This document shows, one piece after another, positions 16,552 through 57,200 of a stretch of 64,000 nt of DNA. The position numbers and the translations under genes are program-made. Source of the stretch: Saprospiraceae bacterium (GTDB lineage: Bacteria > Bacteroidota > Bacteroidia > Chitinophagales > Saprospiraceae); contig JAHDHQ010000001.1 of NCBI GenBank assembly GCA_020631235.1, positions 1 to 64,000 on the forward strand. Reading direction: 5' to 3'. The stretch's first letter is position 1. Every line of letters starts with the position of its first letter. A model generated the notes under the pieces. It saw only the letters and a program-made list of their open reading frames with translations. It made no database searches and had not been told where the DNA came from.

Positions 16552-17310
16552 ATGGATGATATTATATTAATTAAAAATACTTCTGATTACTCGCAGGTGG
16601 ATTTCCATAAGGGGGCGACTATCCTTGTAGATAAACCTAAAAATTGGACTTCCTTTGATGTCGTTAATAAAGTCCGTAATAGACTTAGAAAAATTTATAA
16701 TATTAAGAACTTTAAAGTCGGACATGCTGGAACATTAGATCCATTAGCAACGGGACTTTTGGTTTTATGTACTGGGAAAAATACAAAGTTAATTAGTGAG
16801 TTCCAAAATGATAGTAAGCACTACTCAGCAGTTGTTAAACTAGGCGCAACTACTGAAAGTTTTGACAGAGAGTACCCTGAAGAAAACATAAAAGATGTAA
16901 GTGGCTTAAAGAAAACCGATATCAAAAAAATGGTCAAAGGTTTTGAAGGAGTGCAACAACAAATGCCACCTATGTTTTCGGCCATAAAAAAGAATGGGAC
17001 ACCACTTTATAAACTGGCTAGGAAAGGTCAAAAAGTCAAAATAGAACCTCGGGAAATAAATATAAAATCAATTAAAGTAAGTAAAATTGAAGGCCCGCTT
17101 GTTTATTTAGATATTCATTGTTCTAAAGGCACCTACGTTCGATCCATTGCCAACGATTTAGGACAAAGATTGGGTGTGGGAGCTTATTTATATGACTTAG
17201 TTAGAACTTCTTCAGGACAACTTAGTTTAAATGAAGCAGTATCTCTAGATTCTTTGATAGAAAATTTAGAGATTCGAATGAATCAAAATAATAGTGTCAG
17301 TAATAGTTAA
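16552..17310 (+). CDS. truB: tRNA pseudouridine(55) synthase TruB
   Basis: 252 residues. The catalytic motif GHAGTLDPLATGLLVLC is present, with the nucleophilic Asp in GTLDP, as are the N-terminal KPKNWTSFDVVNKVR and the KGTYVRSIANDLG motif. TruB makes pseudouridine 55 in the T loop of tRNAs. It starts 7 bp after uppP and its 3' end overlaps gldA by 17 bp, so it is tightly placed within the block. Confidence 0.96.
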   Translation: MDDIILIKNTSDYSQVDFHKGATILVDKPKNWTSFDVVNKVRNRLRKIYNIKNFKVGHAGTLDPLATGLLVLCTGKNTKLISEFQNDSKHYSAVVKLGATTESFDREYPEENIKDVSGLKKTDIKKMVKGFEGVQQQMPPMFSAIKKNGTPLYKLARKGQKVKIEPREINIKSIKVSKIEGPLVYLDIHCSKGTYVRSIANDLGQRLGVGAYLYDLVRTSSGQLSLNEAVSLDSLIENLEIRMNQNNSVSNS

Positions 17311-18214
17311 TAATATCACGAAAATATACGGCTCTCAAAAAGCTGTGGATGCATTATCCTTTGAAGTAAATTCAGGAGAAGTCTTAGGATTTCTAGGCCC
17401 TAATGGAGCTGGAAAGACTACAACTATGAAAATCTTGGCTTGCTTTTTACCTCAATCAGAAGGAGAAGCCATTGTCCAAGGGTTTGATGTTAGTAAAGAT
17501 CCATTAGCCGTACGTAAGATTCTGGGTTACTTACCCGAACATAATCCATTGTATCTAGATATGTATGTAGTGGAATACTTGCGCATGGTAGCCAGTATTC
17601 ACAGAATAAAAAATCCACTTGGACGTATTGATGAATTATTAGAAATAACTGGCTTAAACAAAGAATCCAAAAAGAAAATTGGTAGCCTATCTAAAGGCTA
17701 CAGACAACGTGTTGGTTTAGCTCAAGCTATCATTCATGATCCTAAAGTGCTTATTTTAGATGAACCTACTTCTGGATTAGATCCTAATCAATTAGTGGAA
17801 ATACGATCTCTGATAAAAACTTTAGGTCAAGATAAAACCGTCATCTTTTCTTCGCACATTATGCAAGAAGTAGAAGCTTTATGTGATAGAGTCATTATAT
17901 TAAACGAAGGTAAATTAGTAGCTGATGACCCCATAGCTTCTTTAAGTAGCCGCATAAAGGGTCATTCAATATTACAAGTAGCTTTTGAGAAAAACATGGA
18001 TATTGCCCGCTTAAGAGGTCTTCCTGGTGTTGAAAATGTAAGTATTGACCAAGGGGTTTTCATTATCACTTCAGCTGCTGATACTGATGTGCGTTCGAGC
18101 GTTTTTGATCTGGCTGTTGGCACCCAAAATCGCATTCAGCATATGCAATTAGAAGAAGCAAGTGTTGAAAAAGTATTCCAGACATTGACCCAAAAAACTA
18201 ACAAGGATGCTTAG
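17294..18214 (+). CDS. gldA: Gliding motility ABC transporter ATP-binding protein GldA
   Basis: 306 residues. It has Walker A GPNGAGKTT (about residues 36-44), signature LSKGYRQRVGLAQA, Walker B VLILDEPTSGLDPN and the switch His in SSHIMQE. The C-terminal extension of about 90 residues is typical of GldA. In Flavobacterium, GldA works with GldF and GldG in a transporter once linked to gliding; in many Bacteroidota the three are kept with T9SS genes. GldF and GldG follow directly, each overlapping the previous gene by a few bases, so this is one operon. Confidence 0.93.
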   Translation: MSVIVNNITKIYGSQKAVDALSFEVNSGEVLGFLGPNGAGKTTTMKILACFLPQSEGEAIVQGFDVSKDPLAVRKILGYLPEHNPLYLDMYVVEYLRMVASIHRIKNPLGRIDELLEITGLNKESKKKIGSLSKGYRQRVGLAQAIIHDPKVLILDEPTSGLDPNQLVEIRSLIKTLGQDKTVIFSSHIMQEVEALCDRVIILNEGKLVADDPIASLSSRIKGHSILQVAFEKNMDIARLRGLPGVENVSIDQGVFIITSAADTDVRSSVFDLAVGTQNRIQHMQLEEASVEKVFQTLTQKTNKDA

Positions 18215-18941
18215 TATATACCTGAAAGAATTGCGTTCTTTTTTTAGTTCACTCATAGGTTATCTAGTGATAGGAGTGTTCTTATTGTTTGTCGGACTCT
18301 TTATGTGGGTGTTCAATGATACGAGTATTTTAGAATACAGGTACGCAAGTATGGACTCACTTTTTAGTATTGCGCCATTGTTGTTTATGTTGATTATCCC
18401 AGCACTCACGATGAGAACTTTCGCTGAAGAGAAACAAAAAGGTACTTTAGAATTTCTTTTTACTAAACCATTAAAGGATTATCAGATTGTTTTAGCTAAG
18501 TATTTTGCGTCTTTTAGTTTAGTCATCTTAGCCTTGCTACCGACTATTATATACTATTACAGTATTCATCAGCTTGGATTTCCTAAAGGCAATATTGATG
18601 GAGGGGCAGTGATTGGGTCCTATTTGGGTTTGTGTTGTTTAGCTTTGGTATTCATTGCCATAGGAATTTTTGCTTCATGCATCACAAGCAATCAAATTTC
18701 AGCTTTCATTTTAGGGGCATTTTTGTGTTTTATGTTTTTTCTGAGTTTTAGCTATTTGAGTAGCTTATCTATATTTTTCGGTCGTCTTGATCATTTAGTA
18801 GAAAAAATAGGCCTCGAATATCATTATCAGTCAATTTCCAGAGGGAAGATAGAGTTTAGAGATATTTTCTATTTCTTAAGCCTAGCCAGTTTTTTCATAT
18901 GGCTAAGCTTAGTAGCTATTTCAAAACGTAAATGGTCATGA
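18207..18941 (+). CDS. gldF: Gliding motility ABC transporter permease GldF
   Basis: 244 residues with about six membrane segments. The motif MRTFAEEKQKGTLEFLFTKPL after the second segment is typical of ABC-2 type permeases of the GldF/NosY kind. It overlaps gldA by 8 bp and the gldG start by 4 bp (ATGA), pointing to translational coupling. It is the membrane partner of GldA. Confidence 0.92.
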   Translation: MLSIYLKELRSFFSSLIGYLVIGVFLLFVGLFMWVFNDTSILEYRYASMDSLFSIAPLLFMLIIPALTMRTFAEEKQKGTLEFLFTKPLKDYQIVLAKYFASFSLVILALLPTIIYYYSIHQLGFPKGNIDGGAVIGSYLGLCCLALVFIAIGIFASCITSNQISAFILGAFLCFMFFLSFSYLSSLSIFFGRLDHLVEKIGLEYHYQSISRGKIEFRDIFYFLSLASFFIWLSLVAISKRKWS

Positions 18942-20629
18942 AAAAGCGAATAGAAGCCATAATAAATACCTGTATACTTGCAGGCCTACTGATTATCAGT
19001 AATGCATTAATAGATAAATGGACAGGTTATGTAGACCTTACTGATGATAAACGCTTTACATTGAGTGAATCTACCAGAGATTTAATCGCCAGTGTCGATG
19101 AAACTATTTATATCAAAGTTTTGCTGGGAGGAGAACTTCCTTCGGGTTTCCAACGACTTGAAGAGTCCACAATAGACGTACTGAGGCAATTTAGATCGAT
19201 CAATTCTAATATTGAGTTTTTATTTGAAAATCCTACAGAAGGCTCTGTAAAAGAAGTTAATGACAGGGTAGAGTACTTAAGAAAACAAGGAATATTGCCG
19301 ACTAATTTAATGGTCATGGATCAAGGTCAAAGGAGTGAAAAGCTCATTTACCCATATGCATTGTTTTCTTATGGCACAAGACAGACAGCTGCTAATTTAT
19401 TAGAAGAGCAAAATATTAAGTTAGGCGAAGAAGAAGTGCTTAATCGATCGATTAATTTATTAGAGTATAAACTTGCAAACGCAATACAAAAGTTAGTTCA
19501 GAAAGATAGAAAAACCATCCTTTTCTTAGAAGGTCATAATGAACTGTTACCACAACAAACCGCTAGATTAGAAAGAGAACTTGCACTTAATTATGAAATA
19601 GCAAGAGTCTCTTTAGATTCAGCCTATCAGATAAAGCAAGATGTCGATTTGCTTATCGTGTCAAAACCTAAAAGTGCTTTCTCGGAAAAGGATCTATTCA
19701 AGATCGATCAATATGTAATGAACGGTGGCAAAATCATATGGATGGTAGAGAAATATGACGTTGCCTTAGATAGCATAGCAAAATATGGAGAATATGTTCC
19801 CAGAGAGTTACAACATGGTTTAGAGAATCTTTTCTTTGATTACGGAATAAGATTTAAGTCTAATTTAGTGTTGGATGCTGAAGCTAGTAAAATACCGCAG
19901 GTGATAGGATACTCAGGTGATAAGCCACAAACATCTCTGTTTAAATGGTATTATCATCCGATAATAAAAGGAAATGAAAACCACCCAATATCTAAAAATA
20001 TCGGTTTAGTTAATGTTACATTTCCTACCACTATAGACACCTTAAAGACTGCAAGTAACATAAAACGAACGATCCTTGCGTCCAGTTCCGATTATTCCAG
20101 GTTTCAAGTGTATCCTATGCGGATAGGCTTTGATATACTAAAGTTGGATGAAGATTTATCAAAGTTTAATAAAGGACCTCAATCCATTGCTGTTTTAGCC
20201 GAAGGGCAATTTAAATCTCATTTTAGTAATAGAGTGTCCCAAACTATGCTTGATGGTTTACGAAGTATAGATATGGAGTTTAAAGAATCAAGTATTCCAA
20301 CAAAACAGATTTTTATCTCAGATGCAGATTTTGTGAAAAATCTATATGATCCTAATAATAATCAAATCAGTGAAATAGGCTATAATAAATGGGAAAATTA
20401 TGCTTATCCCGGCAATAAACAGCTTATTAAAAATTCAATAGAATTTTTACTGGATGACTATGGTTTACTTGAGTCTAGATCTAAAGATGTAAAACTACGA
20501 CTATTAGACCAATCAAAAATTCAGGAAGAAAGAACTAAATGGCAACTATTAAATGTAGCATTACCGATTATTATTCTTGTCATATTCGGTTTTGTTTTTC
20601 AATTTTTTAGACGCAGAAAATACGAATGA
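18938..20629 (+). CDS. gldG: Gliding motility ABC transporter component GldG
   Basis: About 563 residues from the ATG at 18938, which overlaps the gldF stop as ATGA; an ATG two codons earlier is also possible. An N-terminal membrane anchor (about residues 8-26) is followed by a large extracytoplasmic region of the ABC-type uncharacterised/GldG family (DDKRFTLSESTRDLI, KTILFLEGHNELLPQ, VDLLIVSKPKSAFSEKD). A C-terminal anchor (about 538-556) ends in a basic tail (RRRKYE). It acts with GldA and GldF. Confidence 0.92.
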   Translation: MKKRIEAIINTCILAGLLIISNALIDKWTGYVDLTDDKRFTLSESTRDLIASVDETIYIKVLLGGELPSGFQRLEESTIDVLRQFRSINSNIEFLFENPTEGSVKEVNDRVEYLRKQGILPTNLMVMDQGQRSEKLIYPYALFSYGTRQTAANLLEEQNIKLGEEEVLNRSINLLEYKLANAIQKLVQKDRKTILFLEGHNELLPQQTARLERELALNYEIARVSLDSAYQIKQDVDLLIVSKPKSAFSEKDLFKIDQYVMNGGKIIWMVEKYDVALDSIAKYGEYVPRELQHGLENLFFDYGIRFKSNLVLDAEASKIPQVIGYSGDKPQTSLFKWYYHPIIKGNENHPISKNIGLVNVTFPTTIDTLKTASNIKRTILASSSDYSRFQVYPMRIGFDILKLDEDLSKFNKGPQSIAVLAEGQFKSHFSNRVSQTMLDGLRSIDMEFKESSIPTKQIFISDADFVKNLYDPNNNQISEIGYNKWENYAYPGNKQLIKNSIEFLLDDYGLLESRSKDVKLRLLDQSKIQEERTKWQLLNVALPIIILVIFGFVFQFFRRRKYE

Positions 20630-20694: not shown

Positions 20695-21717
20695 ATGAAG
20701 AAAATTTTATTGCTTTTAGGTCTTTTACTTGTTTTAGGACTGGCTTATCTATATTTAGGAAAAGCAGAATCCAAAAAACTGCAAGAAGTGAGTGGTATCG
20801 ACTTAAGTGATCGAGCTTTTGCTGTAGAAAAAGAAAAAGATATCCACAAGATCGTTATTACTACGAAAACGCACCCTAAGTATACCATCATCAAACAAGA
20901 TGACGACAGCTGGATGTTTAATGAGTATTTTAAAGCAGATAGACATGTCATGATGCGTCTTCTTGAAGCCTTAACCAAAATAGATATAAAATATATTCCT
21001 CCAGAACCTAGCCAAAAGACCATCGCTAAAAATATGGCTCGAACTGGAATCGAGGTTCAAGTTTATGATAAAACAGGAAACAAATTAAGAGACTTTATTG
21101 TGGGGTCTAATGCTAATGACGAACGATCCACATTTTTTAAAGTGAAAGGAAAAGATAAAGCTTATGCCATGTATTTTCCATACTCAGAAGGTTCATTGAG
21201 AACCAGGTTTGTGTATGACCTGATGGATCTTCGAGACAAATACATTTTAGAAGAAGATATTAGTGCTATCCAGTCAGTGGAGGTTATTTATCCTAAGCAA
21301 GCAAAACACTCCTTTTTATTAGAAAAGAAAGAAAAAGATTGGAGTGTACAACCTTTACACGCCGACATTGAACCATCTAAAAAGCAACTTAATAATCAGT
21401 CTATAGAAGATTTTTTAAGTGTTTTTAAGCTTATACCTTCAGAAAATATAGAAACACATAACCCACGGATTGATTCTATAAATTCGGTGACTCCATTTAT
21501 GTCAATCAAAATTACTAATACTGAAGGTGTTGTAAAATCGCTCAAACTAAGACCTATGAATGACTTTTTAGATGAAGACCAAAATACAACGAGTGTAGAT
21601 GAGGTGCACATCGTTGAGCGATTTTTTGTAGAGACTAATTGGAGAGATAGCTATTTGTTACAAAAAAGACATATTTTAGGAGCATTAAGACCTTATAACT
21701 ATTTTTATAGAGATTAG
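20695..21717 (+). CDS. DUF4340 domain-containing membrane-anchored protein
   Basis: 340 residues with a single N-terminal hydrophobic anchor (KKILLLLGLLLVLGLAYLYL). The rest is an exported domain with the DUF4340 pattern (VEKEKDIHKIVITTK, DDSWMFNEYFKADRHVMMRLLEAL, FIVGSNANDERSTFFK). The family has no fixed function but commonly follows gldG-type genes, so a role with the GldAFG transporter is likely. It lies 65 bp after gldG; no terminator is visible in the gap. Confidence 0.85.
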   Translation: MKKILLLLGLLLVLGLAYLYLGKAESKKLQEVSGIDLSDRAFAVEKEKDIHKIVITTKTHPKYTIIKQDDDSWMFNEYFKADRHVMMRLLEALTKIDIKYIPPEPSQKTIAKNMARTGIEVQVYDKTGNKLRDFIVGSNANDERSTFFKVKGKDKAYAMYFPYSEGSLRTRFVYDLMDLRDKYILEEDISAIQSVEVIYPKQAKHSFLLEKKEKDWSVQPLHADIEPSKKQLNNQSIEDFLSVFKLIPSENIETHNPRIDSINSVTPFMSIKITNTEGVVKSLKLRPMNDFLDEDQNTTSVDEVHIVERFFVETNWRDSYLLQKRHILGALRPYNYFYRD

Positions 21718-21723
21718 CATTTT

Positions 21724-22926
21724 ATGTTCCGTTTTATATTGTTTTTAATTTTGGTGTTTGTCAGCACTTCTTTTAGTGCACCTGATTGGGGTTTTTATGG
21801 TCACCGCACCATCAATAGGAAAGCAGTATTTACATTACCACCTCCATTAATCTCTTTTTACAAAAACAATATAGAATTCATCACAGAACACGCTGTAGAT
21901 CCTGATAAGCGACGGTATGCAACAAAACATGAAGCAGTCAGGCATTACATCGATGTTGATCACTGGGGAACATTCCCATTTGATAATGTTCCAAGATTAT
22001 GGCATGAGGTAATTCTTAAATATGCTAGATTTATCCATGCAGGTACTGAAAACGATACCTTTCAAATAAATTGTTGGGATGCAATGCCTTATGAACACCC
22101 ATCAATGATCGTGGATTGTGATACTTTATACCAATTATTTTATGAGGTCATACAGCCAATATATTATGAAGACGAAAAAATAATTGACTTAAATCTATTA
22201 AATCAATTCCTAGATCGTCCCATTGAACAAAAAGGCAATGCTGAGATACAATTCGATGATACTTTTAGTGAATATGGAATACTGCCTTATCATTTAGAAC
22301 AGTATTATCAAAAATTAGTCAATGCTTTTTCGTCCAAAGACATCAACGTTATTTTACGACTTTCAGCAGAAATTGGGCATTATATAGGAGATGCACATGT
22401 ACCCCTGCATACGACAGAAAATTACAATGGTCAATTAAGTGATCAAGTAGGAATCCATGGATTTTGGGAAAGTCGGTTGCCAGAGTTGTTTGCCGAAGAG
22501 AGCTATGATTTTTTTGTGGGTAAGGCATTATATATAGAAGACACAAAAAGCTATTTTTGGGATGTTGTATTAACTAGTCATAGTCATCTAGAAGAAGTGT
22601 TAGCTTTCGAAAAATCATTAAGTAAATCTTTTCCCCAGGATCAGCAATACTGTTTTGAAGAGCGCTTAGAACGAACCATCCAGACCCAATGTGAACCTTA
22701 TGCGATAGAATACCATAAAATGTTAGATGGGATGGTGGAAACAAGGATGAGAGATGCAGTGTTGAGTATTGGTAGCATTTGGCATTCGGCTTGGGTGGAT
22801 GCAGGTCAGCCTGATTTAGATATTGATGGAAGAATCAGCTTTAGCGAAGAAGATAAAGAGGCTCAAAAGAAACTGAATCTAAAGTTTAAATCAGGAGATA
22901 TAAAAGGAAGAAGTCACGATCAATAA
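21724..22926 (+). CDS. Exported zinc enzyme of the S1/P1 nuclease / phospholipase C superfamily
   Basis: 400 residues. The signal peptide ends at FSTSFSA and the mature protein begins PDWGFYGHRTINR, which fits the N-terminal Trp/His zinc ligands of this superfamily. Further ligands are in HYIDVDHWG, GHYIGDAHVPLHTTENYNGQ and HGFWESR. The GD.H.PLH motif is shared with S1/P1 nucleases and zinc-dependent phospholipase C, so the substrate (nucleic acid or phospholipid) is undecided. It lies 6 bp after DUF4340 and 1 bp before the DUF368 gene. A conserved place next to gld genes would suggest an envelope role. Confidence 0.85.
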   Translation: MFRFILFLILVFVSTSFSAPDWGFYGHRTINRKAVFTLPPPLISFYKNNIEFITEHAVDPDKRRYATKHEAVRHYIDVDHWGTFPFDNVPRLWHEVILKYARFIHAGTENDTFQINCWDAMPYEHPSMIVDCDTLYQLFYEVIQPIYYEDEKIIDLNLLNQFLDRPIEQKGNAEIQFDDTFSEYGILPYHLEQYYQKLVNAFSSKDINVILRLSAEIGHYIGDAHVPLHTTENYNGQLSDQVGIHGFWESRLPELFAEESYDFFVGKALYIEDTKSYFWDVVLTSHSHLEEVLAFEKSLSKSFPQDQQYCFEERLERTIQTQCEPYAIEYHKMLDGMVETRMRDAVLSIGSIWHSAWVDAGQPDLDIDGRISFSEEDKEAQKKLNLKFKSGDIKGRSHDQ

Positions 22927-22927
22927 A

Positions 22928-23908
22928 ATGAATAAAATTTCACTAATATTTAAAGGGATGGCCATGGGAATGGCTGAGGTAATACCTGGAGTGTCAGGAG
23001 GTACCATCGCTTTCATTACTGGAATTTATGAGAAGTTATTACAAAATGTTCGAAATGTAGATGGGACTTTTTTTAAACATTTGTTTAAGGGTAGACTAAA
23101 GGACGCTTTTGCATTACTTGATGTTTCTTTTTTGCTTTTCCTTTTAATGGGCATGTTTGGAGGAATAGTCCTTGGTGTTTTAGGAGTTAGTTATTTGCTA
23201 GAAACGTTCCCTACTGTACTATGGTCTTTTTTCTTTGGATTGATTTTAATGTCTATATTTTATATTTTGTCCAAGGTCGAACATCTTGATATCTACAAGC
23301 TACTTATCTTTCTGGCGGGTGCTATGATAGCTTTTGGAATATGTTTAATAAACCCAATGCAAGGCAATGATCATCCATTGTATTTAATCATTGCTGGATC
23401 AATAGCTATTTCTGCTTTAATCCTACCGGGAATTTCAGGCAGTTTTATGCTCTTAATCATGGGAATGTATAGCATAGTTATTCCTGCATTGAAAAATATA
23501 CTTACCAATTTCTCAATGGATGCAGTAAAAATCGTAGTGTTTTTTGGTATCGGCTGTCTGATAGGTTTAGCATTATTTAGTCGTGTATTGACTTGGACTT
23601 TTAAAAAGTACCACGACCAAACATTAGCGATCCTGAGTGGGTTTATGTTGGGTTCGTTATATAAAATATGGCCTTGGCGTCATCCGGAAAAGGTTTTAAA
23701 TAAAGAGACCAACACAATATCCACTCTACAAGGAGATCAAGTTGATTTGACATTAGTAAATAACGAACAATATAAAATATTAAGTGAACAATTAGTGAGT
23801 CCGAGTGCTTATCTCAGTGATGCTTACTTATGGGCTTGCATAGCTGCTTCAGTAGTAGGTTTGTCTATCGTGTATTTTCTGTGGAAACACGATAGAAGTG
23901 AACAATAG
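22928..23908 (+). CDS. DUF368 family membrane protein, probable undecaprenyl-phosphate translocase (PopT-like)
   Basis: 326 residues, about eight membrane segments with an internal repeat. Each half has a Gly/Pro-rich re-entrant motif: AEVIPGVSGGTIAFITGIYE (near residue 17) and LPGISGSFMLLIMGMY (near residue 166). These are the marks of DUF368, a family shown in other bacteria to return undecaprenyl phosphate to the cytoplasmic face. With uppP in the same gene block, two successive steps of carrier recycling are encoded together. It ends the rightward block. Confidence 0.88.
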   Translation: MNKISLIFKGMAMGMAEVIPGVSGGTIAFITGIYEKLLQNVRNVDGTFFKHLFKGRLKDAFALLDVSFLLFLLMGMFGGIVLGVLGVSYLLETFPTVLWSFFFGLILMSIFYILSKVEHLDIYKLLIFLAGAMIAFGICLINPMQGNDHPLYLIIAGSIAISALILPGISGSFMLLIMGMYSIVIPALKNILTNFSMDAVKIVVFFGIGCLIGLALFSRVLTWTFKKYHDQTLAILSGFMLGSLYKIWPWRHPEKVLNKETNTISTLQGDQVDLTLVNNEQYKILSEQLVSPSAYLSDAYLWACIAASVVGLSIVYFLWKHDRSEQ

Positions 23909-24035: not shown

Positions 24036-26261
24036 ATGAATTTAAGGCTGTTACGAATTACCATCTTTGCACTAGTTATATGTGCTATACATACGCCCAT
24101 TCAAAGCCAGACTTTGTATACGAAGGCTCAAAAGCAATTTGACTTAAAAGCTTATGACCTTTCTATAGAAAACTTCAAAAAAGAGTTAGAAATTAACCCA
24201 GATTGCAATGAATGTAAATACATGATTGCAGAGGCTTACCGTCATCAGAACAACAGCATAGATGCAGCAATATGGTTTAGTCAATTAGAACAGGCTGAAA
24301 ATGTTCCCCAAGAGTACTACTATAATTACGGTCAAGTACTGAAGAAGATGGGGCAATATGAAAAAGCTCAAGAGAATTTTGCTATGTATCAGCAATTTAA
24401 TCCTGAATTAGGTGAGCATTATAGTTTGAGTTGTGACTATGCTAAAGTATTATTAGCTGAAGACGAAAAATTTAGACTTTCCCTTTACAAGCCAAGCTCT
24501 GATCAGGCAGATTATGGTGTTGGATTTTTCAATGACGAGATAATATTTGCTTCTTTCAGAAATGATTTTGTTCGTGATTATAGCAGAAATGAACAAAGCA
24601 AAATAAATAAAAATGGTAGTCAGTTGTTTAAAGCTAAAAAAGGTAGGCTTGGTAAAACCGCTAACACCGATTATTTGCTTCCAGACAGCGCTGAGAAATA
24701 TAATATAGGAGCCATATCGTATGCAAAATCAGGTAAGATTTGTGCCTATACAAAAAATAACTACTCACATGCAGGAATGGAGATATTCGCTGATGATCAA
24801 GACATGCACATATATATTGCTGAAGTTGATCAAACAGGACGAATGATTTTTGAACAAGCATTTGAATACAATGAAATAGGCTATTCTACAGGTTTTCCAA
24901 GTTTAAATTACGAAGGTAAAGCCATGTATTTTGCAAGTAATAGACCTGGTGGTTTTGGAGGTTACGATTTATATGTTAGTTATCTTAAAGATGGAGTATG
25001 GACCTACCCTGAAAACTTAGGGGACAGAATTAATACATCAGGAAACGAAATCACTCCGTTTTTGCAAGAAAGCACTTTGTACTTTGCTACTGATTATCAT
25101 CACGGTATGGGAGGATTTGATATTTTTTCTTCACAAGTTATAGATGGAGAGTGGGATTATCCCTCAAACATGGGAAATGGAGTAAATTCTCCTGAAGATG
25201 ATTTCTATCCTGCATTTGATGAAGAAGCAAATACCTTGTATTTAACTTCGAACAGACTAGGTGGGAGAGGAGAGCATGATATATATATGGCCATAAAAGT
25301 TGTAGAACACGAAGTGGTAATCTTAACTCCTAACTTTGATACTCAGGATAATAGTGAGAATTTAAGCGATTCTGAAATTGTAAATGCAGAAATTCCTGCT
25401 GCTATAAGTTTAGATGATTTTATGTCGGCTCCAGCCCCTGAACCCATTGTCGAAGAATCAAATGTTACTTTAGTTAACAATACAACTAGTACAGTCATTA
25501 AAACTGAAGTAAAAGAAACTGAATCGATACTGGAAAATACTCAAGAGATAAAAGTTGATGCTGAAGAATTATCCAGTGTTCCTCCGCCAGCAATTTCTTT
25601 AGAGGAAATGAATAGAACAAACAAGGCTTTTGGAACATCGGTTAATACAGCTTTAGAGTCAATGGCTGGTGTACGAAAAGTAGCTTATGGTGAAGTAATT
25701 ACAAACCCTACAAAAGTATATTTTATTCAGTTAGCTGCCTTATATAAAACACAAGGAAACATATTACCTTTTAAACGTTTAGTTCAGTATGGCAATATTT
25801 ATAAAACGAATGAATCAAGCGTTACTAAAATAAAACTAGGATATTTTGCTGATGCAGGACAAGCTTCACAAATTCTCTCTCAAGTTAAAGGTATGGGTTT
25901 TACTGATGCATTCATTACTCACGAGGCCATGAGCAGTTCTGAATTAGAACTGATGGTGTCAAATGGTCAGAACAATGTGGATTTTGGATCAAATTATTCT
26001 GGTGGGTATACTACTGGTAATCAATATAAAGTAAGGTTAGCTGCCTACGAAGACCCTATATGGTTTGATGTTAATAAGGTAAAAGATTTGGGGATGATAG
26101 AACAGTGGTCAAAACGAGATTGGACGATATTTGTATTGAGTGGATTTAATTCATTCGAAGATGCAAATAATGCTAAGATAAGAGCGCTCAACAGAGGTTT
26201 TTCTGATGCTGAGGTTGTGCTCGATAGAAATGGTATTTTAGAGACTATTAATGCTCATTAA
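24036..26261 (+). CDS. Envelope protein with TPR, PD40 beta-propeller and two SPOR-like domains
   Basis: 741 residues. Order: signal peptide (residues 1-24), TPR repeats (about 25-130: FDLKAYDLSIENFKKELEINPD, YYYNYGQVLKKMGQYEKAQENF), then PD40/WD40-like propeller repeats (about 280-420: MYFASNRPGGFGGYDLYVS, LYLTSNRLGGRGEHDIYMA). An acidic, low-complexity linker (about 425-550) leads to two C-terminal segments reading like SPOR domains (about 560-640 and 663-740: KVYFIQLAALY, YKVRLAAYEDP). The TPR-PD40 front resembles the T9SS protein PorE/OmpA-family, but the OmpA peptidoglycan-binding domain is replaced by SPOR-like ones, which in other proteins bind denuded glycan. A periplasmic or outer-membrane scaffold linked to the cell wall is the best guess. 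Confidence 0.8.
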   Translation: MNLRLLRITIFALVICAIHTPIQSQTLYTKAQKQFDLKAYDLSIENFKKELEINPDCNECKYMIAEAYRHQNNSIDAAIWFSQLEQAENVPQEYYYNYGQVLKKMGQYEKAQENFAMYQQFNPELGEHYSLSCDYAKVLLAEDEKFRLSLYKPSSDQADYGVGFFNDEIIFASFRNDFVRDYSRNEQSKINKNGSQLFKAKKGRLGKTANTDYLLPDSAEKYNIGAISYAKSGKICAYTKNNYSHAGMEIFADDQDMHIYIAEVDQTGRMIFEQAFEYNEIGYSTGFPSLNYEGKAMYFASNRPGGFGGYDLYVSYLKDGVWTYPENLGDRINTSGNEITPFLQESTLYFATDYHHGMGGFDIFSSQVIDGEWDYPSNMGNGVNSPEDDFYPAFDEEANTLYLTSNRLGGRGEHDIYMAIKVVEHEVVILTPNFDTQDNSENLSDSEIVNAEIPAAISLDDFMSAPAPEPIVEESNVTLVNNTTSTVIKTEVKETESILENTQEIKVDAEELSSVPPPAISLEEMNRTNKAFGTSVNTALESMAGVRKVAYGEVITNPTKVYFIQLAALYKTQGNILPFKRLVQYGNIYKTNESSVTKIKLGYFADAGQASQILSQVKGMGFTDAFITHEAMSSSELELMVSNGQNNVDFGSNYSGGYTTGNQYKVRLAAYEDPIWFDVNKVKDLGMIEQWSKRDWTIFVLSGFNSFEDANNAKIRALNRGFSDAEVVLDRNGILETINAH

Positions 26262-46046: not shown

Positions 46047-47669
46047 TTATGGATATAAGAAAAATTTATACGATAATTTCTCCTCACTGTTAGCCACACT
46101 TACGAAATATATACCTGCTGGAAGGGTTGCATATTGAGTATTTATTTCTATGTTATTAACTGTAAAGATACTTGGATCATCCACGTAAGTATAAATAACT
46201 CGTCCTAGAGCATCACTAAAAATAACTCGATGTTTTTCTGACTTATTTGTAGTATAAGTAAACATTAAACCATCACTAGAGGTTAGATTTCCTTTTTCAT
46301 TTACAATTTCAAGATCAGTAATGGTATTGTTACACAAAGAGCTTTCTTGAGGATCAGCGCTTTCTGAAGCTAAAGCGTTCATGGCATTGAAAATATTTAA
46401 GCGACCTCCTGAAACGGTAATTGAAGCAAGATTATTCACTGGATCTACACTATTCATGATTAGATCTTTAATGGCCAATGCAGTTTCTCTTGGATTGGCT
46501 GTAAAATTTAGTGCCATTTCTTCACAATTCATACTACAAATTAATCCAATCGCTGAAGCTACATAAGGGCAAGATGCCGAAGTTCCACTAAAATATCGAT
46601 AGCCATCATTAGGCTTTAATGTGTAAATATCTTCACCTGGTGCACCCAAATCCACTACATTAGAACCATAGGCCGCTTGGGTTACCTTGAAATCCGCACT
46701 GTTTGTATTTGTGGCCATTATTGTAAAAGGACTCGGACAATCACTGGGCATATCAAGCGAAATTTCTAAATCTACATTAGCATTAGGAACTGCACCAGCA
46801 CTTAAAACACCTACATCGCCTAAAGCATCATACACATCACACCATGCTGGAAAGTCATTGGGTCCAACATCTGGAATACCTCCAGAAAAATTGGTAGCAA
46901 CGACTAATGCTCCTTCAGCACCTTCTGTATCATTAAATAATTTTCGTTGATCGTATGCATATTCGTATCCTTTGATAATTTTACTTACTTGGGTCCCTTC
47001 ACTTAAAAACATTAACTTGATATTCCAATTAGCACCTGCTATGCCTACACTGTTATCTGCTTTTGCACCTATAACACCAGCTACTGCTGTACCATGAGTG
47101 GGGCTAGATGGATGGTTGTCTGTATTAGTGGCCAGATTTAAACCATAATAATCATCAATATAACCATTGCCATCATCATCTATTCCATTATCAGGAATTT
47201 CTGCATTATTTGTCCAAGCTTGGCCTTCGAAATCTTCATGATCAATTTGAAAACCATCATCTATTACAGCTATAACAATTTCTCTACCCAATGCGTCAAA
47301 ACCACCTTTTGTTTCATCCCAGACCTTATAAAGTCCCAGTTTTTCTAAAGCCCATTGAAATCCTATTTCTGGATCGTTAGGAACGGTTTCTCTTTTGTGA
47401 ATTTCTTTGTCTTCATAAAAATCTAAGGAAGTACTAAAAAAGTCTAATTCGTTTATAGTAATGGCTTTATCAAATTTAATAGCATATAGATGTACACGGC
47501 GTGAAATGGATTCGACATTTAAAAGCTTTGCTTCCATTTGTGTTTCAAGCTCTTGCCAGGTTCTATTTGTCAATTCATAAGGAGAATTGATTATCCAATC
47601 CGTTTGCTGAGCCAACAAATTCTGCGAGATAAAAAAAATACTTGCCAAGATGAAAAACACATGCTTCAT
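46047..47669 (-). CDS. Secreted subtilisin-family serine protease (S8) with T9SS sorting domain
   Basis: 540 residues. Signal peptide (MKHVFFILASIFFISQNLLA), propeptide-like region (about 21-110), then the S8 catalytic domain with Asp137 (IVIAVIDDG), His192 (THGTAVAGVIGA), oxyanion Asn260 and Ser364 (SGTSASCPYVAS). The C-terminal 90 residues form a T9SS domain (ITDLEIVNEKGN ... LPAGIYFVSVANSEEKLSYKFFLYP). It is expected to be an extracellular endopeptidase. An insertion with NGIDDDGNGYIDDYYG (about 161-176) probably binds calcium, as in other members. Confidence 0.94.
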   Translation of the reverse strand: MKHVFFILASIFFISQNLLAQQTDWIINSPYELTNRTWQELETQMEAKLLNVESISRRVHLYAIKFDKAITINELDFFSTSLDFYEDKEIHKRETVPNDPEIGFQWALEKLGLYKVWDETKGGFDALGREIVIAVIDDGFQIDHEDFEGQAWTNNAEIPDNGIDDDGNGYIDDYYGLNLATNTDNHPSSPTHGTAVAGVIGAKADNSVGIAGANWNIKLMFLSEGTQVSKIIKGYEYAYDQRKLFNDTEGAEGALVVATNFSGGIPDVGPNDFPAWCDVYDALGDVGVLSAGAVPNANVDLEISLDMPSDCPSPFTIMATNTNSADFKVTQAAYGSNVVDLGAPGEDIYTLKPNDGYRYFSGTSASCPYVASAIGLICSMNCEEMALNFTANPRETALAIKDLIMNSVDPVNNLASITVSGGRLNIFNAMNALASESADPQESSLCNNTITDLEIVNEKGNLTSSDGLMFTYTTNKSEKHRVIFSDALGRVIYTYVDDPSIFTVNNIEINTQYATLPAGIYFVSVANSEEKLSYKFFLYP

Positions 47670-50338: not shown

Positions 50339-51277
50339 CTAATAGCTTAAATCTGTATGATAAGTTAATATCAATTCAAATCCTGGGCCGGCATTGACTA
50401 ACTCTTGAGTTACGTTCAGGTTCCCTGCAACGCCTACCTTCATGTAAGAATATTTACTTCCAATGTCTCGAATGTAAAAACCTGATTGGAAAAAGATATC
50501 ATTGACGGTAGAGTAGGAAAGACCTACCCAAAAGGAATCATTATAGTCGTAATTTGCCGTAAGTATAATGTCTAATAATTGTGGTGACGTATAATTCACA
50601 GCAGCTGATAACTCCCAAAAACTTATTCTATTGTAAAGCTTAGTACCAATGTGTCCAAACAAATGTACCTGGCGCTTAAAATCATTATTTTGAATTAACA
50701 AATTTGTACTCACAGCCTGCATAAAGGCTAAACCCACAAAGAATGAATTTCCTTGATATTCTCTTTGGTTGGATATATAAGAAAAGCCAGCTCCTGCTGC
50801 TGGATAGAATTTGGAATTCCTATTGATTAATAAAAGTGGATCTCCTCCTTCTCGATAAATCTCTTCAGTTGCATTAAAACTAAACTGGGTGCCACGAGCC
50901 TTTATACCTAAACTTACTTGATCATACCGGAAGAGTAATGAATTAATTTTATAATTATAATTTATGACAATACTATTATTAGTAATAGGCCCAGCCTTAT
51001 CAGAATAAATTGCTCCTCCCAAAGCCATATTTTGTTTCCTAAATGGGTATTGTATGCTTGCATACATTAACCTTGGTGCTTTCTTAGTGCCTATGCCTAA
51101 CCATTGCTGCCTAAAGTAAACGCTACCTATCATTTCATCTCCGGTGGCATTAAATGCTGGATTCCAAATGTGCTTAGTATCAGTGAATGCACTGGCATAT
51201 GGAAATTGCTGGGCGCTTATATTGCTTGCTATCATTATGAAAAAGCAGACATGAATAAGTGTTTTAATCGTTTTCAT
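50339..51277 (-). CDS. PorP/SprF family type IX secretion system outer-membrane protein
   Basis: 312 residues. Signal peptide (ending ASNISAQ), then the family opening FPYASAFTDTKHIWNPAFNATGDE and a series of beta strands (QNMALGGAIYSDKAGPITNN, NYDYNDSFWVGLSYSTVND), fitting an outer-membrane barrel. In Flavobacterium, SprF is needed for secretion of the adhesin SprB, and PorP/SprF genes commonly lie next to genes for proteins with a type B sorting domain. Here that partner is the 2150-residue protein immediately upstream (22 bp gap), so this protein probably assists its export or anchoring. Confidence 0.93.
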   Translation of the reverse strand: MKTIKTLIHVCFFIMIASNISAQQFPYASAFTDTKHIWNPAFNATGDEMIGSVYFRQQWLGIGTKKAPRLMYASIQYPFRKQNMALGGAIYSDKAGPITNNSIVINYNYKINSLLFRYDQVSLGIKARGTQFSFNATEEIYREGGDPLLLINRNSKFYPAAGAGFSYISNQREYQGNSFFVGLAFMQAVSTNLLIQNNDFKRQVHLFGHIGTKLYNRISFWELSAAVNYTSPQLLDIILTANYDYNDSFWVGLSYSTVNDIFFQSGFYIRDIGSKYSYMKVGVAGNLNVTQELVNAGPGFELILTYHTDLSY

Positions 51278-51299
51278 ATTATATACTTTAATGATAGTT

Positions 51300-54200
51300 C
51301 TAATTATCTCTGGTTATCGTTATGGTGTTTTTAATGGAGTATTCACCAAATTTTAATATGTAATAATAAACATCAGCTGGTAAGACTATTCCTCCGTTAG
51401 CACCATCCCATAATTCACCATCTAACTGGTATCCATCTTGTTGATAAACTATATTTCCCCATCGATTAAAAATAACCAATTGACTATCGGAAAAAGCTTC
51501 TAATCCATCGAAAATAAGTTCATCATTTATTCCATCTCCATTAGGTGTTATTATAGAAATTGCCTCCACAAGATCCTCTGGATTGATAAACACATTAACC
51601 CTAACAGAATCTGTGTAGACACAGCCATTTTCATCTATTATTTGAACTCCAAATGTGGTAGAGTCAGAGACTATTGCGGTTGGTTGTGCTATTTCATTTG
51701 AGCCTTGTATTAAAGCTATATGATCCCAATAGTATTCTTCTCCGCCGAAAGCTCGAAGTGTAAAAGGCGCTCCAGATATAACCGTTGTGTCAGGCATAAC
51801 ACCTACTTCCACTGGTTGAAAAACAGTTATGGTTACATCAGTACTAGCTTGATTATTAGGACATTCATCAGAAACAGTCACGCTGTAAGTCGTAGTTTCT
51901 GTAGGATAAGCTATAACGTTAGCTATAGAGTCTGAACTTAGTGTACTGGCATTATCCCAACTAAAATCGGGCCCACCTATGGCTTGAAGCAATAAAGAAT
52001 CTCCAAAGCATATTTCAGTTTGACTCGGGAATATTTCTGCTTCTGTAATAGGTGTCGAGAAAAACACGCCAATAGTGTCTCTCGTGATACAACCATCATT
52101 TTTTACTTGTAATATAAAATCAACAGCACCTTCATATGGGCCTCCAGCTTCTAATGTAATGATCGGATCCAGTGAACTATTAGGAAACCACAAATACTCT
52201 TCATAATTACCTGTTGCATCGATCACCACTTGTTCTCCTGGACACACTAAAAGATCTTCTCCTAAATCTAGTGGATCCACCATACCTTCATCCACAAAGG
52301 CATTTAATGTATCCGCACATATATCATTGGTAACAATAACCGTATAATCACCACCCATTTCAGCCACATAGGAATCTTCGTTTGCATTATCAATGAGCAT
52401 ATCGTTTAAAAACCACTGATAAGAATAAGATTGGAATTCATCAAAAACAAACATTTCTACTGACTCGCCAGAACAAATAGCTAAGGAGTCTAACCATCCA
52501 AGAGTTTCTGGAGTGTTTGCAATGAAGATTGTCTTAGTATCAAATGTAAAACAGTCAGGGTCATCTTTAAAAATCTTTACTGTAATATCTATAAAACTAA
52601 GGCTCTCATCAGTTTCATAATAAATAGTATTATCATTTTCACCCACTAAAACTTCAGAACCAATGGTCCATTCATGGGTAAAGCCCTCTATTCCTGTGGT
52701 TATTTCGACTATATTACCACCACAGACGGTAGTATCTATTCCTAAATCGACCATTGGTGGATCTTCGAAAACAACTGTAATACTATCAGAATAAAAACAA
52801 TTAGCTACGGGTTCGTAGCCTTCCATATAATACACTCCATCTGTTGTCACGTTAACACTCACCGCATCTACCTCAAAAGGATCTTCTTCTCCCACTTTAT
52901 ACCAAGCAATATTATTAGGGAATGCCTCACCGTCGCATTGGGTATAAATGATAGTCAAACCATTACCACTCGATAAGCAACCAAATAAAGTATCGATTCC
53001 ATCGTTTAAGCAGAACTTAAAATCAACAAAGTCTAGCGAAACTTCCGCACTCACTTCGCAATTACCGTCATTGGCAATGATCCCATAATTTCCATCTTCT
53101 GTGACAGTAATTTCATTGGTCTCTTCTCCGGCTATTGGATTGGTGGGATCCGTTAAATACCACGAATAGGTGACTCCATCTTCTGGATCTTCTCCAGTAG
53201 TCAAAACAAAATCTTCACCCTCACATGCTCTTTGGAAATCTTCTCCAATATCCACGTTGGGTGCTGGAACAATGATTACCTCAATTGTATCTCTGAAAAA
53301 ACAATTATTAATATTTGGATGAGCAGTCTCACCAATATAAAAACCACCTTCTGTAACCTCTAAGTCTTTGAGGTCCGAATATGCACCTACTTCAATCGGT
53401 CCATTTGAACAAGGTAAAGTTTCGCAATAAAACCAAGCAATATTACTTGCCGAAATTGAGGTAGTGAATATAGTTCCTGTAGTACCTTCACAAACTTCTA
53501 AAACTTGATCAGTTTCAAACGAAGGTGTTATCATAAAATTTAAAGAAACAGAATCAGTAGATGTACATCCTGTGTTTGGACTAGTAACGTCCACAACATA
53601 AGTACCCGTTTCTTCAGCTGTAATCACACTGGTTTCTTCGAATAAGTTAGGACCTATCCATTGATATTCCGCGCCTATTTCGGCTGTGTTTGCTGTCAAT
53701 ATAACCGCGTCACCTTCACACAATTCTTGATTGGGATCTGTGCTCGTTTGTAACAAAAAATTAGGCGGATCAACCTCTGAAATACAAATAGTATCTCGAC
53801 CTACACATCCATTACTCTCAATCATTGCAATTAACTTACCCGATTCTGTAACATCGTAAGCTCCTAAAATATCACTGGTATCTAACTCTAAACCATTATC
53901 AAATACCCAACCCACATTTATAGAAACATCCGTAAATGCTTCAATCAACAAACTTGAGCCTCTGCATAAAGTAGTGTCACTACCACCATCTATCACAACT
54001 TCAATAGATTCTTCGAAAGTGACATCAATGGTTTCCTGTGCTGAACATTGATTTTGATCAATAACTGTTAAAGTGTATGTATCATTACTAAAGAAGGAAG
54101 CTTCAAAACCTGAAGAAACTTCATCACCATTGCTATCTGTCCAGCTTATATTATCTAAATCTAGAGCTGTGTTTGCAATTCCTGTTATATTTATAAAGTC

Positions 54201-57200
54201 TATACCACACACCGTTGTATCTGTTGTAGGCAAAATTAATTCTGGTGATGGTGTTACGATTACTTCTATAGTATCAGAAGCTGTACAAGCAAGGTTACCG
54301 ACTGTAACAATATAGGTACCTGAAATTTCAATATCCACAGAAGTGTTTATGGTACTTGATTCAATAAAAGTAGTATCACTTTGATCAAAATTAATGATTT
54401 GCCACTCATAAAATAGAGCGCCGGTTTGATTAGGAGTTAACTCGTATACAGGTGAAGAACAAATGGTAAATGGGTCTTCTTCTACAAATGAAACCGTTGG
54501 CGCAGGTGTTAAATTCACTTCTGCTGCTGCCATATCTGAACAACCTACATCATCAAAAACAGTCAAAAAATAGGTCCCACTTTCAGTTGGAATTATAGGG
54601 TTGCCAGAGTATGTAGTACTACTTCCTAATACAGACCATTCAAAACTAGTGGCTAACTCACTGGTAGCCATAATTGATTCTCCTTCACATACATTAAAAA
54701 CACCTGGCATACTTACTTCAATTCCAGTACTCATACTTGCATTGGTGTAGCTAAATGTATTCATACATTCGGGTACGTTTTCTACAGACACGTCTATATT
54801 CATGGTCGAGCCATCAGCAGGTAAATTGAGCAAAGTGATAAACGTTTGTGTTCCTGACGCCGGAAAAGTCATACCATTTACTATGATATTTGATTGATCA
54901 CTCGGAAAATCTGAATAATAAACAATGAAATTTTGATTGTATGTTTCGGTATCTAAACAAGAAGATTCGGGAAATGGTACAATGGAATCAATAGAACAAG
55001 CCATAAGCTCATTTACAATAAGTAATTTAAAATCCTCTGAAGCCAAAACACAATTTCCTGCATCCAATAGGCTTTGTAGATCGCTGCCTACGAGTGTGCT
55101 AAGATCAACATTACTTGGTGGTTCAGGTCCAGAAACTTTATAAGTTATAGCATGTGTATTGTATTCTCCTGGTGGTAAAGTGGTAAAGTCTGCGTCTGTG
55201 TTTGCAGCTTCAATCAATCCAGTTACATTATTAACCGCAATATACCCTGTGGCATAATCAGGTTCATGATTTGAAAGCGTATAAAAACTTCCTCCATCAT
55301 TGGGAAAAATATTCATAGTGAAATTGGTTCCTTGCTGAGCACCTGCTGTAGTCATCACATATGTTTCACATCGCTGTAAATTTACACTCAAGTCACCAGA
55401 CAAAAAGTATCCTCCCGAAGTTAAATAGCTTAGATTAGTACCGATTAAATTTGGACATGCATTATCAAAATCTAAACCATTCAAAGTGTATATACTAATA
55501 AATTCATCCGATTGCGAACGGCTGAAAGTATAATTTCCATCTTGACTTACTTGGAAAGTATCCAGTTCAGTCCTTCTTGTGATCCAAACTCCACAATCGT
55601 CATTTTCATTGATCCCATAAAAATTAAGGATGGGATCACTAGTGGTTATATCTATGTCTAATTCGAAACTAATATCGGCTACGATTCCAAAGGGATCTAA
55701 CGCAAAAACTGGATCTCCAACATCACCTGTCACTGTTTCAGTATCACATACAACCATATCTGTTGCAACACAAGAAGAATTAATAGTAAAAAAACCATCA
55801 CTAACATTATAAAACTGAATGCAGTCATTATCGGAGCACTTAACCATAATCTTTGCCTTGTCAGTCGGCGGTATGGATAAGGGTAATGGTCCAAAATAGG
55901 TTTGGTTGATGTAATTTACCCCTGTGGCGATAACATAATCAAAACTAAAACCTCCATTAGTCGACAAAAGTATATCGACTTCATCACAAAGCATGGAAGA
56001 TCCATTCATATCCCAATTTGCTTTTGCTTCTCCTCCTACATCCCATACTTCAACACCTGTAGGATAGGTTACCAATAATGGACCATCATCATCGATAGTT
56101 ACATCAATACTGTCAGTGTTTATAGCTGCGCCATCCCTAACTGTATAATGAAAATCCAATTCTCTCGGTACATTGGATAAAATATCAAAGTCATTAGGTA
56201 TGTTATTTACAACTTCATACAATCTTGGGAAATACCTTGATGGACTGCTACTGGGAGGATAACTTCTAAATATGGGCGAAAAGAAATTGTTAGCTGCATT
56301 TGTTGATATAAAGCCTTGTGGACCTCCATTATCAAATTGCTCCCAGCAGTGTCTCAAGATATCTCCATCAGCATCTGCTGCCTCTCCAGTTAAAATAAAG
56401 GGAGTAGATCTTGGAATAACAATATTGTTTATTCCACATGGATTTGCATCAATTTCTGGAATATTATTTCCACTTAATTGGTTATTAGCACAATCAGGAA
56501 TAGCGGTCTCTATAAAATCGATCATTTGCAGTAGACTGGCTGAATGAAAATAATCATCCGCTTCACCTCCTGGAGTTATGTTTTGTGAGGTTTCACAAAT
56601 GCCTCTATAGGACATTATAGTTGTTCCACTCCCAATCTCATAAGCCGTTTCAGCAGTGTAAGCTCCATCACAAGAACCACCTGAGCCTTTGAAGGTGTGA
56701 GTTGCACCAAACTGATGTCCGAACTCATGACAAGCTAATCTTATAAAACGATTCAAAGAATTAGATTCAAAATTACCACTCCAACCAGCAGCCTTATTTA
56801 TGCCTACCATTCCATCATCAGGTGATTCGTCAGAGGCGTACGTTTGCTCACTACACACAGAACGCAATAAGGCTACACCGCCACTTGACCATCCTTCTGC
56901 CTCTGGGTCTGAATATAAATGAAAAACGTGTCCAATATCAAATGTACTATTATCAAATAAAGACGCTACCACCTCTGATGCTTGGTTGGTTCTACTATCG
57001 CCTCCAAAATTATTTGGTGTAAATGGATCATTGGGATTTGTATAGACAAAAGGCATAGCAGCTGGTACTAAATTTATCGACATCTCCATATTATATATCA
57101 ATGAAATCCCATCTAATATTGCAAGAGCGTAGGCCTCAGATTGTGCTCCTTGAAAACTAAAAAATTCATAGGTACAAGCCACCGCAACTCGGTAAGTCCT

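Follow-up and report, generated by a model that had tools for sequence, protein, structure and literature searches.

A TPR-PD40 protein with two predicted C-terminal SPOR domains, a recurrent paralogue in Saprospiraceae

In TPR-PD40 scaffolds of this type, attachment to the cell wall is usually made by an OmpA domain, and SPOR domains elsewhere recognise stripped glycan at division sites. The gene at 24036-26261 of the window (the whole stretch of 64,000 nucleotides analysed here, from a Saprospiraceae bacterium) raises the question of which anchor its product uses and to which scaffold family it belongs. In the original prediction, the front half was assigned to the PorE type linked to T9SS, the anchor was thought to be replaced by two SPOR-like segments after a long acidic linker, and the product was expected to prefer denuded glycan at division or repair sites.

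Architecture of the protein and its C-terminal domains

The features of the locus are listed in Table 1. The gene was an open reading frame with an ATG start encoding 741 aa, and the reverse strand across the same interval carried stops throughout. In the Pfam search, TPR_2 matched aa 93-116 with 27.4 bits, just above the cut-off of 27, and PD40 reached 16.5 bits, below its cut-off of 20.9. OmpA was not found among the Pfam matches of the protein at E ≤ 1, and the CRD (CarboxypepD_reg) was not found by Pfam, a low-confidence linker standing in that place. The full-length AlphaFold model (mean pLDDT of 80.2) showed helices at 27-141 and a propeller extending to 421. Confidence was low for the greater part of 425-541, after which two alpha/beta domains were modelled. 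The linker of 120 aa contained 23 D/E and 5 K/R, in agreement with the long acidic linker that had been predicted, and its pLDDT was below 50 in the stretches 425-459, 461-522, and 524-541. In many relatives, a CarboxypepD_reg-like domain occupied the position of the linker. For the N-terminus, Gln25 was invariant in alignment A4, and a lipobox pattern near the cleavage site was found in 0/47 proteins, the window protein included. Judging from the sequence, the protein is probably exported as a secreted scaffold.

The best structural matches of the predicted propeller were glycoside hydrolases, e.g., of GH43 and GH62, and the top match was BT_0996 (Z of 20.4, rmsd of 3.5, 248 aligned, 7% identity). 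TolB was not among the 50 entries listed by the full-length structural search, which excludes nothing, and the rows of that search mainly covered the propeller.

Table 1. Positions of the gene, its predicted parts, and its upstream neighbours in the window
Feature	Position	Strand	Basis and remarks
TPR-PD40-SPOR-SPOR protein	24036..26261	+	741 aa; ORF, Pfam, AlphaFold model
Signal peptide, aa 1-24	24036..24107	+	Cleavage before Gln25 predicted from sequence; no lipobox pattern
TPR region, aa 25-143	24108..24464	+	Pfam; helical in model
PD40 beta-propeller, aa 145-425	24468..25310	+	Pfam, AlphaFold model, structural search
Linker, aa 426-545, acidic, predicted disordered	25311..25670	+	Composition, pLDDT
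SPOR1, aa 559-631	25710..25928	+	Sequence profiles, Pfam in relatives, model; canonical glycan-site residues retained
Gln565 (SPOR1), taken as RlpA Q270 equivalent	25728..25730	+	Alignment; aligned with DamX Gln
Lys598-Ile599-Lys600, SPOR1 beta3 basic patch	25827..25835	+	Alignment
SPOR2, aa 663-736	26022..26243	+	Fold, profile match to SPOR1; glycan site altered
Polyprenyl-phosphate transporter-like gene (DUF368/PopT)	22928..23908	+	Pfam above, NCBIfam below cut-off
DUF4340 protein and Zn-dependent phospholipase C-like protein	20695..22926	+	26.7 bits, cut-off 26.8 (phospholipase C-like)
gldA, gldF, gldG	17294..20629	+	gldA just below cut-off; gldF, gldG above

Pfam SPOR matched SPOR1 of the window protein at aa 560-627 with 17.4 bits (E of 0.0055) and up to 18.7 bits in a second search, below the cut-off of 21, and gave no match for SPOR2. 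Forty-eight two-SPOR proteins, the window protein among them, were aligned, and a subset of 27 was checked with Pfam. At the permissive limit of E ≤ 1, Pfam SPOR matched the SPOR1 segments in 27/27 proteins (best 7.6e-12) and the SPOR2 segments in 20/27 (best 2.1e-7), that of the window protein being among the seven misses. Relatives such as L081, from the cultured Phaeodactylibacter xiamenensis (40.8 bits), exceeded the Pfam cut-off. The SPOR1 and SPOR2 profiles matched each other with a probability of 98.7%, which fits the expectation for an internal duplication. In the PDB search, CwlC (1x60) was matched by the paired profile with an E of 1.4e-7 and by the SPOR1-only profile with 1.7e-9. 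The match of the SPOR2-only profile was weak, with CwlC at 0.0033 and ranked below BurrH repeats.

The C-terminal AlphaFold model (194 residues, mean pLDDT of 83.8, 124 residues ≥ 90) consisted of two strand-helix-strand-strand-helix-strand units, and the first helix of SPOR2 was very short. A failure of these segments to fold as SPOR had been named as the result that would speak against the prediction; the units in the model were of SPOR type. After structural re-alignment, the best four entries were all SPOR. The modelled SPOR2 stood clear of other families (next 5.6), with matches to CwlC 1x60 (Z of 9.0, rmsd of 2.2, 76 aligned), RlpA 6i09 (Z of 8.8, rmsd of 1.7, 69 aligned), and RlpA 6i05 (Z of 8.7). 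For SPOR1, the match to DedD 6ztg (Z of 6.1, rmsd of 3.4, 76 aligned) counts as tied, because other families followed within 1, from 5.6. In the Foldseek ranking by E-value, the leading entries were designed ferredoxin-like proteins, and CwlC followed at rank 21 (E of 0.012, probability of 1.00, target TM-score of 0.71); with ferredoxin-like folds at its head, this ranking is uninformative. Chance SPOR calls were rejected, since the profiles, Pfam in relatives, and the structural matches agreed. Both domains are taken as SPOR here, SPOR1 mainly on its sequence and SPOR2 mainly on its modelled fold and its match to SPOR1. The predicted pair of SPOR-like segments in place of OmpA was thus borne out by the profiles of relatives, the AlphaFold models, and the structural matches.

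Glycan-contact residues of SPOR1 and SPOR2

RlpA contacts denuded glycan with its Q270, R302, and R309 side chains, and a basic patch is made complete by R311 (PMC6895207). The same source gives FtsN R285 as the counterpart of RlpA R309 and counts FtsN W283 and DamX W416 among the residues important for septal localisation. The alignment of FtsN to the SPOR1 profile paired Lys598 with the FtsN Arg (taken as R285) and Val596 with the FtsN Trp (taken as W283). From its position in the strand, Lys600 may be the counterpart of RlpA R311. Gln565 was conserved in 48/48 proteins, Lys/Arg at residue 598 in 47/48, and Lys/Arg at residue 600 in 48/48; these conservation counts are conditional, as the rows of alignments A3 and A4 were picked for having two SPOR domains, from 48 such loci among the best 80 of 575 relatives. 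L097, truncated at the edge of its contig, is missing from A3, and A4 contains neither L097 nor L114. In these residues, SPOR1 looks like a functional denuded-glycan binder.

SPOR2 of the window protein carried Arg667 at the Gln site, Ile698 and Val700 at the beta3 basic positions, and Trp696 at the position of FtsN W283. Across the 48 proteins, the Gln site was occupied by Arg in 27, Gln in 14, and Lys in 7 (non-Gln in 34/48), and Lys/Arg was found at the two beta3 positions in 0/48. Trp was present at the W283 position in 21/48 and in all 18 of the proteins without CRD. SPOR2 thus looks like a domain of unchanged fold whose surface differs. The loss of the Gln in 34 proteins and of the basic residues in all of them would also suit a SPOR pair that had turned into a protein-protein module and lost glycan binding, which is very improbable given that the site residues of SPOR1 are invariant or nearly so. 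Accordingly, the claim of two domains preferring denuded glycan was only half backed: SPOR1 keeps the RlpA-type residues, but SPOR2 is without the canonical contact residues.

Relation to PorE and CHU_0125, spread, and origin

PorE, an outer-membrane lipoprotein, consists of TPR, propeller, CRD, and OmpA domains (PMC7192894); it has an N-terminal lipid, its OmpA_C binds a peptidoglycan fragment, and it binds PorP (PMC7192894, PMC9143113). The best NCBIfam match of the front half was CHU_0125_OmpA, with 207.4 bits over residues 8-446 (cut-off of 620), and T9SS_PorE gave 134.0 bits (cut-off of 600). The front half is homologous to PorE and closer to CHU_0125_OmpA, and both scores were far below the cut-off. 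Deletion of CHU_0125 in Cytophaga hutchinsonii is reported to have raised the release of outer-membrane vesicles sixfold (PMC5891637). The best match could accordingly point to a general tether for outer-membrane integrity, CHU_0125- or Pal-like, around the whole cell. This role is distinctly unlikely, as the OmpA anchor is absent and, according to PMC6895207, a stem peptide would block SPOR binding in RlpA.

Besides the gene at 24036-26261, the window's genome contained seven or more PD40 paralogues (L002-L008). OmpA ends were clear in L002, L004, L005, and L007, weak in L003, and not found in L006 and L008 by a purpose-built profile, for which three of the four clear paralogues had themselves served as building material. 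L007 was the only one of the seven to favour PorE (308.5) over CHU_0125 (293.6), below the 600-bit cut-off; it had an OmpA domain in Pfam, its start looked lipobox-like by eye, and by sequence it is regarded as a better PorE candidate than the window protein. Four paralogues, L002, L005, L006, and L008, adjoined a porP/sprF-like gene according to their coordinates, and 11 such genes were found in the genome. No porP/sprF-like gene adjoined the window gene, the sole one in the window lying at 50339-51277. For Flavobacterium johnsoniae, PMC9143113 reports 10 PorP-like proteins, the genes of six being beside porE-like genes. In the last 130 aa of L003, a weak OmpA-like region was followed by a degenerate-SPOR-like stretch seen by eye, and Pfam gave neither OmpA nor SPOR at E ≤ 0.01.

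The window protein was rejected as the genome's PorE on its low score, its lack of a lipobox pattern and of an adjacent porP-like gene, and the better candidate L007. Together with the missing CRD and OmpA, these features place it on a parallel branch of the family, and the idea of a PorE with its anchor swapped was not sustained. The occurrence of the SPOR form in most genomes of the family, which marks an old paralogue, also argues against the swap. On these sequence features, the protein is classed as a SPOR-ended paralogue that recurs across the family.

A search for the same architecture in other genomes had been proposed and was fruitful. By the rows listed, 37 of the 198 genomes of the order belonged to the window's family (f1), and the SPOR pair was found in 33 of these 37 sampled genomes, the window's own included, at E ≤ 5e-36, a limit chosen after the values were known. 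At the same limit, it was found in 0/161 other genomes of the order, with the best match there at 6.0e-28. The exceptions within the family were G219 and G493 (one genus), with no match, and G035 and G499, with weak matches only. Among the family loci fetched, 27/31 had, by purpose-built profiles, the TPR-PD40 half in frame with two SPOR domains, and this half was not found in the fetched stretch of L153, L155, L164, and L167. The SPOR pairs of L153, L155, and L167 lay in frames of 274 to 329 aa, possibly split genes or separate proteins. Among 296 genomes of the phylum, the pair was present in five at E ≤ 7.7e-40, all from the family, and the next best match anywhere was 9.8e-16. The only match outside the order with a frame above 700 aa (L132/L147) had no TPR-PD40 half. 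Most named relatives among the best 80 of 575 were Saprospiraceae or near kin, such as Phaeodactylibacter xiamenensis. This recurrence indicates an established variant rather than an isolated case. Searches of an open-access library gave no description of the TPR-PD40-SPOR-SPOR architecture (subscription papers were outside the scope), and a term search of PMC12635249 gave nothing on point.

Domain classes were assigned by purpose-built profiles to the ends of 128 TPR-PD40 ORFs from L001-L123. Two SPOR domains were found in 72, three in 8, and one in 6; 29 had OmpA ends (five with three OmpA domains), and 13 had neither, some of them cut by contig or locus ends. These counts are of ORFs and are redundant, since L014 duplicates L001 and some genomes occur in two collections, and the OmpA profile was built from four proteins including the three paralogues from the window's genome. 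By a local profile, CarboxypepD_reg was present in 47/72 two-SPOR ORFs and absent from the window's subclade, which has the acidic linker instead.

Several other SPOR proteins were noted. L079, a three-SPOR relative labelled Thermoanaerobaculia (Acidobacteriota), was placed among Saprospiraceae rows in the tree, which might reflect transfer or a mis-binned contig. With the SPOR-pair profile, as many as 12 matches were obtained in some genomes of f12, a family of the same order. In this family, the stretches L179-L183 encoded proteins that look redoxin-like by eye and that carry between one and three SPOR domains by purpose-built profiles. Some of these adjoined a three-SPOR protein whose start is membrane-like. 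The window's genome likewise has a thioredoxin-SPOR protein, L010.

The origin of the SPOR-ended form was followed in two quick trees of the TPR-PD40 half. After nine rows with a long branch or doubtful class were dropped (L003, L004, L005, L006, L008, L105_230, L113, L119, and L120), one branch parted 82 SPOR rows from 21 OmpA rows with a support of 72.7, which is not firm. In the same tree, the SPOR and triple-OmpA rows together were separated from 16 OmpA rows with a support of 99.6. In the tree of all 118 rows, the SPOR/OmpA states took two changes, the second being L105_230. It was rejected as a second SPOR form, with a weak 21-bit local match and no Pfam support at E ≤ 0.01. A single exchange of OmpA for SPOR within this family is the simplest reading.

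L146 (f12) carried TPR, PD40, CRD, and OmpA followed by a single C-terminal SPOR (27.2 bits, cut-off of 21). Like the window protein, it combines TPR-PD40 with a C-terminal SPOR; unlike it, L146 has kept OmpA and has a CRD and only one SPOR. It was rejected as an evolutionary intermediate because its row, L040, grouped with the OmpA forms, which points to a parallel gain of SPOR in L146. In addition, TPR-PD40 proteins with three consecutive OmpA domains (L042, L100, L102, L107, and L112) were neighbours of the SPOR clade in the tree; the triple OmpA had a Pfam basis in L042 and a local-profile basis in the others, and L042 and L100 had the same front half. These proteins would represent another route to multiple wall anchors.

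Genomic context, proposed role, and comparison with known systems

The transporter-like gene directly upstream was common to many relatives, the DUF4340 and phospholipase C-like genes were also present in relatives, and the arrangement with gldA, gldF, and gldG occurred in a few. Also upstream, the best matches were FtsX-like and UppP; among the upstream PopT-type, UppP, FtsX-like, and gldAFG matches, only GldF and GldG passed the NCBIfam cut-offs. Among the best 80 of 575 relatives, the transporter family was located no more than three ORFs upstream in 12/18 CRD-less SPOR loci, and several of the other six loci were cut by contig ends. The neighbour set comprised 61 loci, with L148 duplicating L058, many short contigs, and neighbours taken as plain ORFs.

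The gene was divergent from a subtilase in 12/60 distinct loci, six with CRD and six without. Pfam gave Peptidase_S8, GEVED, and Por_Secre_tail in two of those subtilases, the last of these domains passing its cut-off in one and missing it in the other, and a subtilase homologue in the window, at 46047-47669, had a Por_Secre_tail match below the cut-off. At least 150 T9SS sorting-domain matches were found in the genome (150 scored of 302 candidates), and this bacterium thus probably relies heavily on T9SS export. On the reverse strand at 50339-57752, the PorP/SprF-like gene adjoined a gene for a 2150-aa secreted-type repeat protein, with no PorE-like gene beside it; this pair may correspond to SprF-SprB.

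The sorting-domain matches, the subtilases, and the homology of the front half to PorE would be expected if the protein were a T9SS component, that is, a PorE-like bridge from the secretion machine or cargo anchors to the wall in which SPOR had no division role. Such a bridge is considered unlikely here, because the gene lacks the porP/sprF neighbour seen in L002, L005, L006, and L008, the lipobox pattern is missing, L007 is the better PorE, and the front half is nearer to CHU_0125. The link of the window protein to T9SS is circumstantial.

The genome also encodes an Amidase_3-SPOR protein, L011, which in principle would be able to produce denuded glycan. The probable role, which we favour with some reserve, is that of a soluble periplasmic scaffold tethering a partner to amidase-stripped glycan through SPOR1. 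The signal peptide would export the protein and be cleaved by signal peptidase I. By analogy with PorE, the TPR and propeller parts would have a binding partner, most probably a protein of the outer membrane or one associated with T9SS, and the flexible acidic linker would bridge the gap to the cell wall. SPOR1 would hold glycan strands from which amidases had removed the stem peptides. Such glycan would be most plentiful at the septum or where the wall is being turned over, and it would enrich the protein there. SPOR2, with the same fold and a changed surface, probably raises avidity or has a different ligand. A single origin of the SPOR-ended form in the family is probable, with OmpA-ended TPR-PD40 proteins as its source, and paralogues with an OmpA end occur alongside it.

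This soluble tether is supported by the SPOR identity of the domains, the residues of SPOR1, the one-origin tree, the occurrence in 33/37 genomes of the family, the presence of L011, the lack of a lipobox pattern, and the upstream PopT-type, UppP, FtsX-like, and gldAFG matches. The points against it are the missing Gln, basic patch, and Pfam match of SPOR2, the tied structural match of SPOR1, the Foldseek order, the rank of the SPOR2-only profile below BurrH, the exceptions within the family, and the two changes in the full tree.

A broader proposal, offered tentatively as one that may well prove wrong, is that Saprospiraceae re-aimed a PorE/CHU_0125-type scaffold, with OmpA and the stem peptide of bulk peptidoglycan giving way to SPOR1 and amidase-stripped septal glycan. 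The product would be a soluble, division-coupled link between outer-membrane or T9SS complexes and the closing septum, with SPOR2 as a second site for a different ligand. If this is true, the wall anchor of a T9SS-type scaffold would be exchangeable for an anchor that recognises the wall's chemical state, and outer-membrane machinery could be placed by division or wall turnover. The OmpA-ended and SPOR-ended paralogues in one genome offer a testable contrast, and SPOR2 represents a SPOR domain whose ligand may differ from denuded glycan.

Compared with known systems, the window protein has the N-terminal scaffold of TPR and beta-propeller in common with PorE of Porphyromonas gingivalis. Unlike PorE, it has an acidic linker and two SPOR domains, with no lipobox pattern and no neighbouring porP-like gene. 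CHU_0125 is its best NCBIfam match, and the OmpA end of that protein is absent in it. With RlpA, FtsN, DamX, DedD, and CwlC, it shares the SPOR fold and, in SPOR1, the glycan residues. Unlike all five, it carries SPOR domains that are fused to a TPR-propeller half, the second of them with an altered site.
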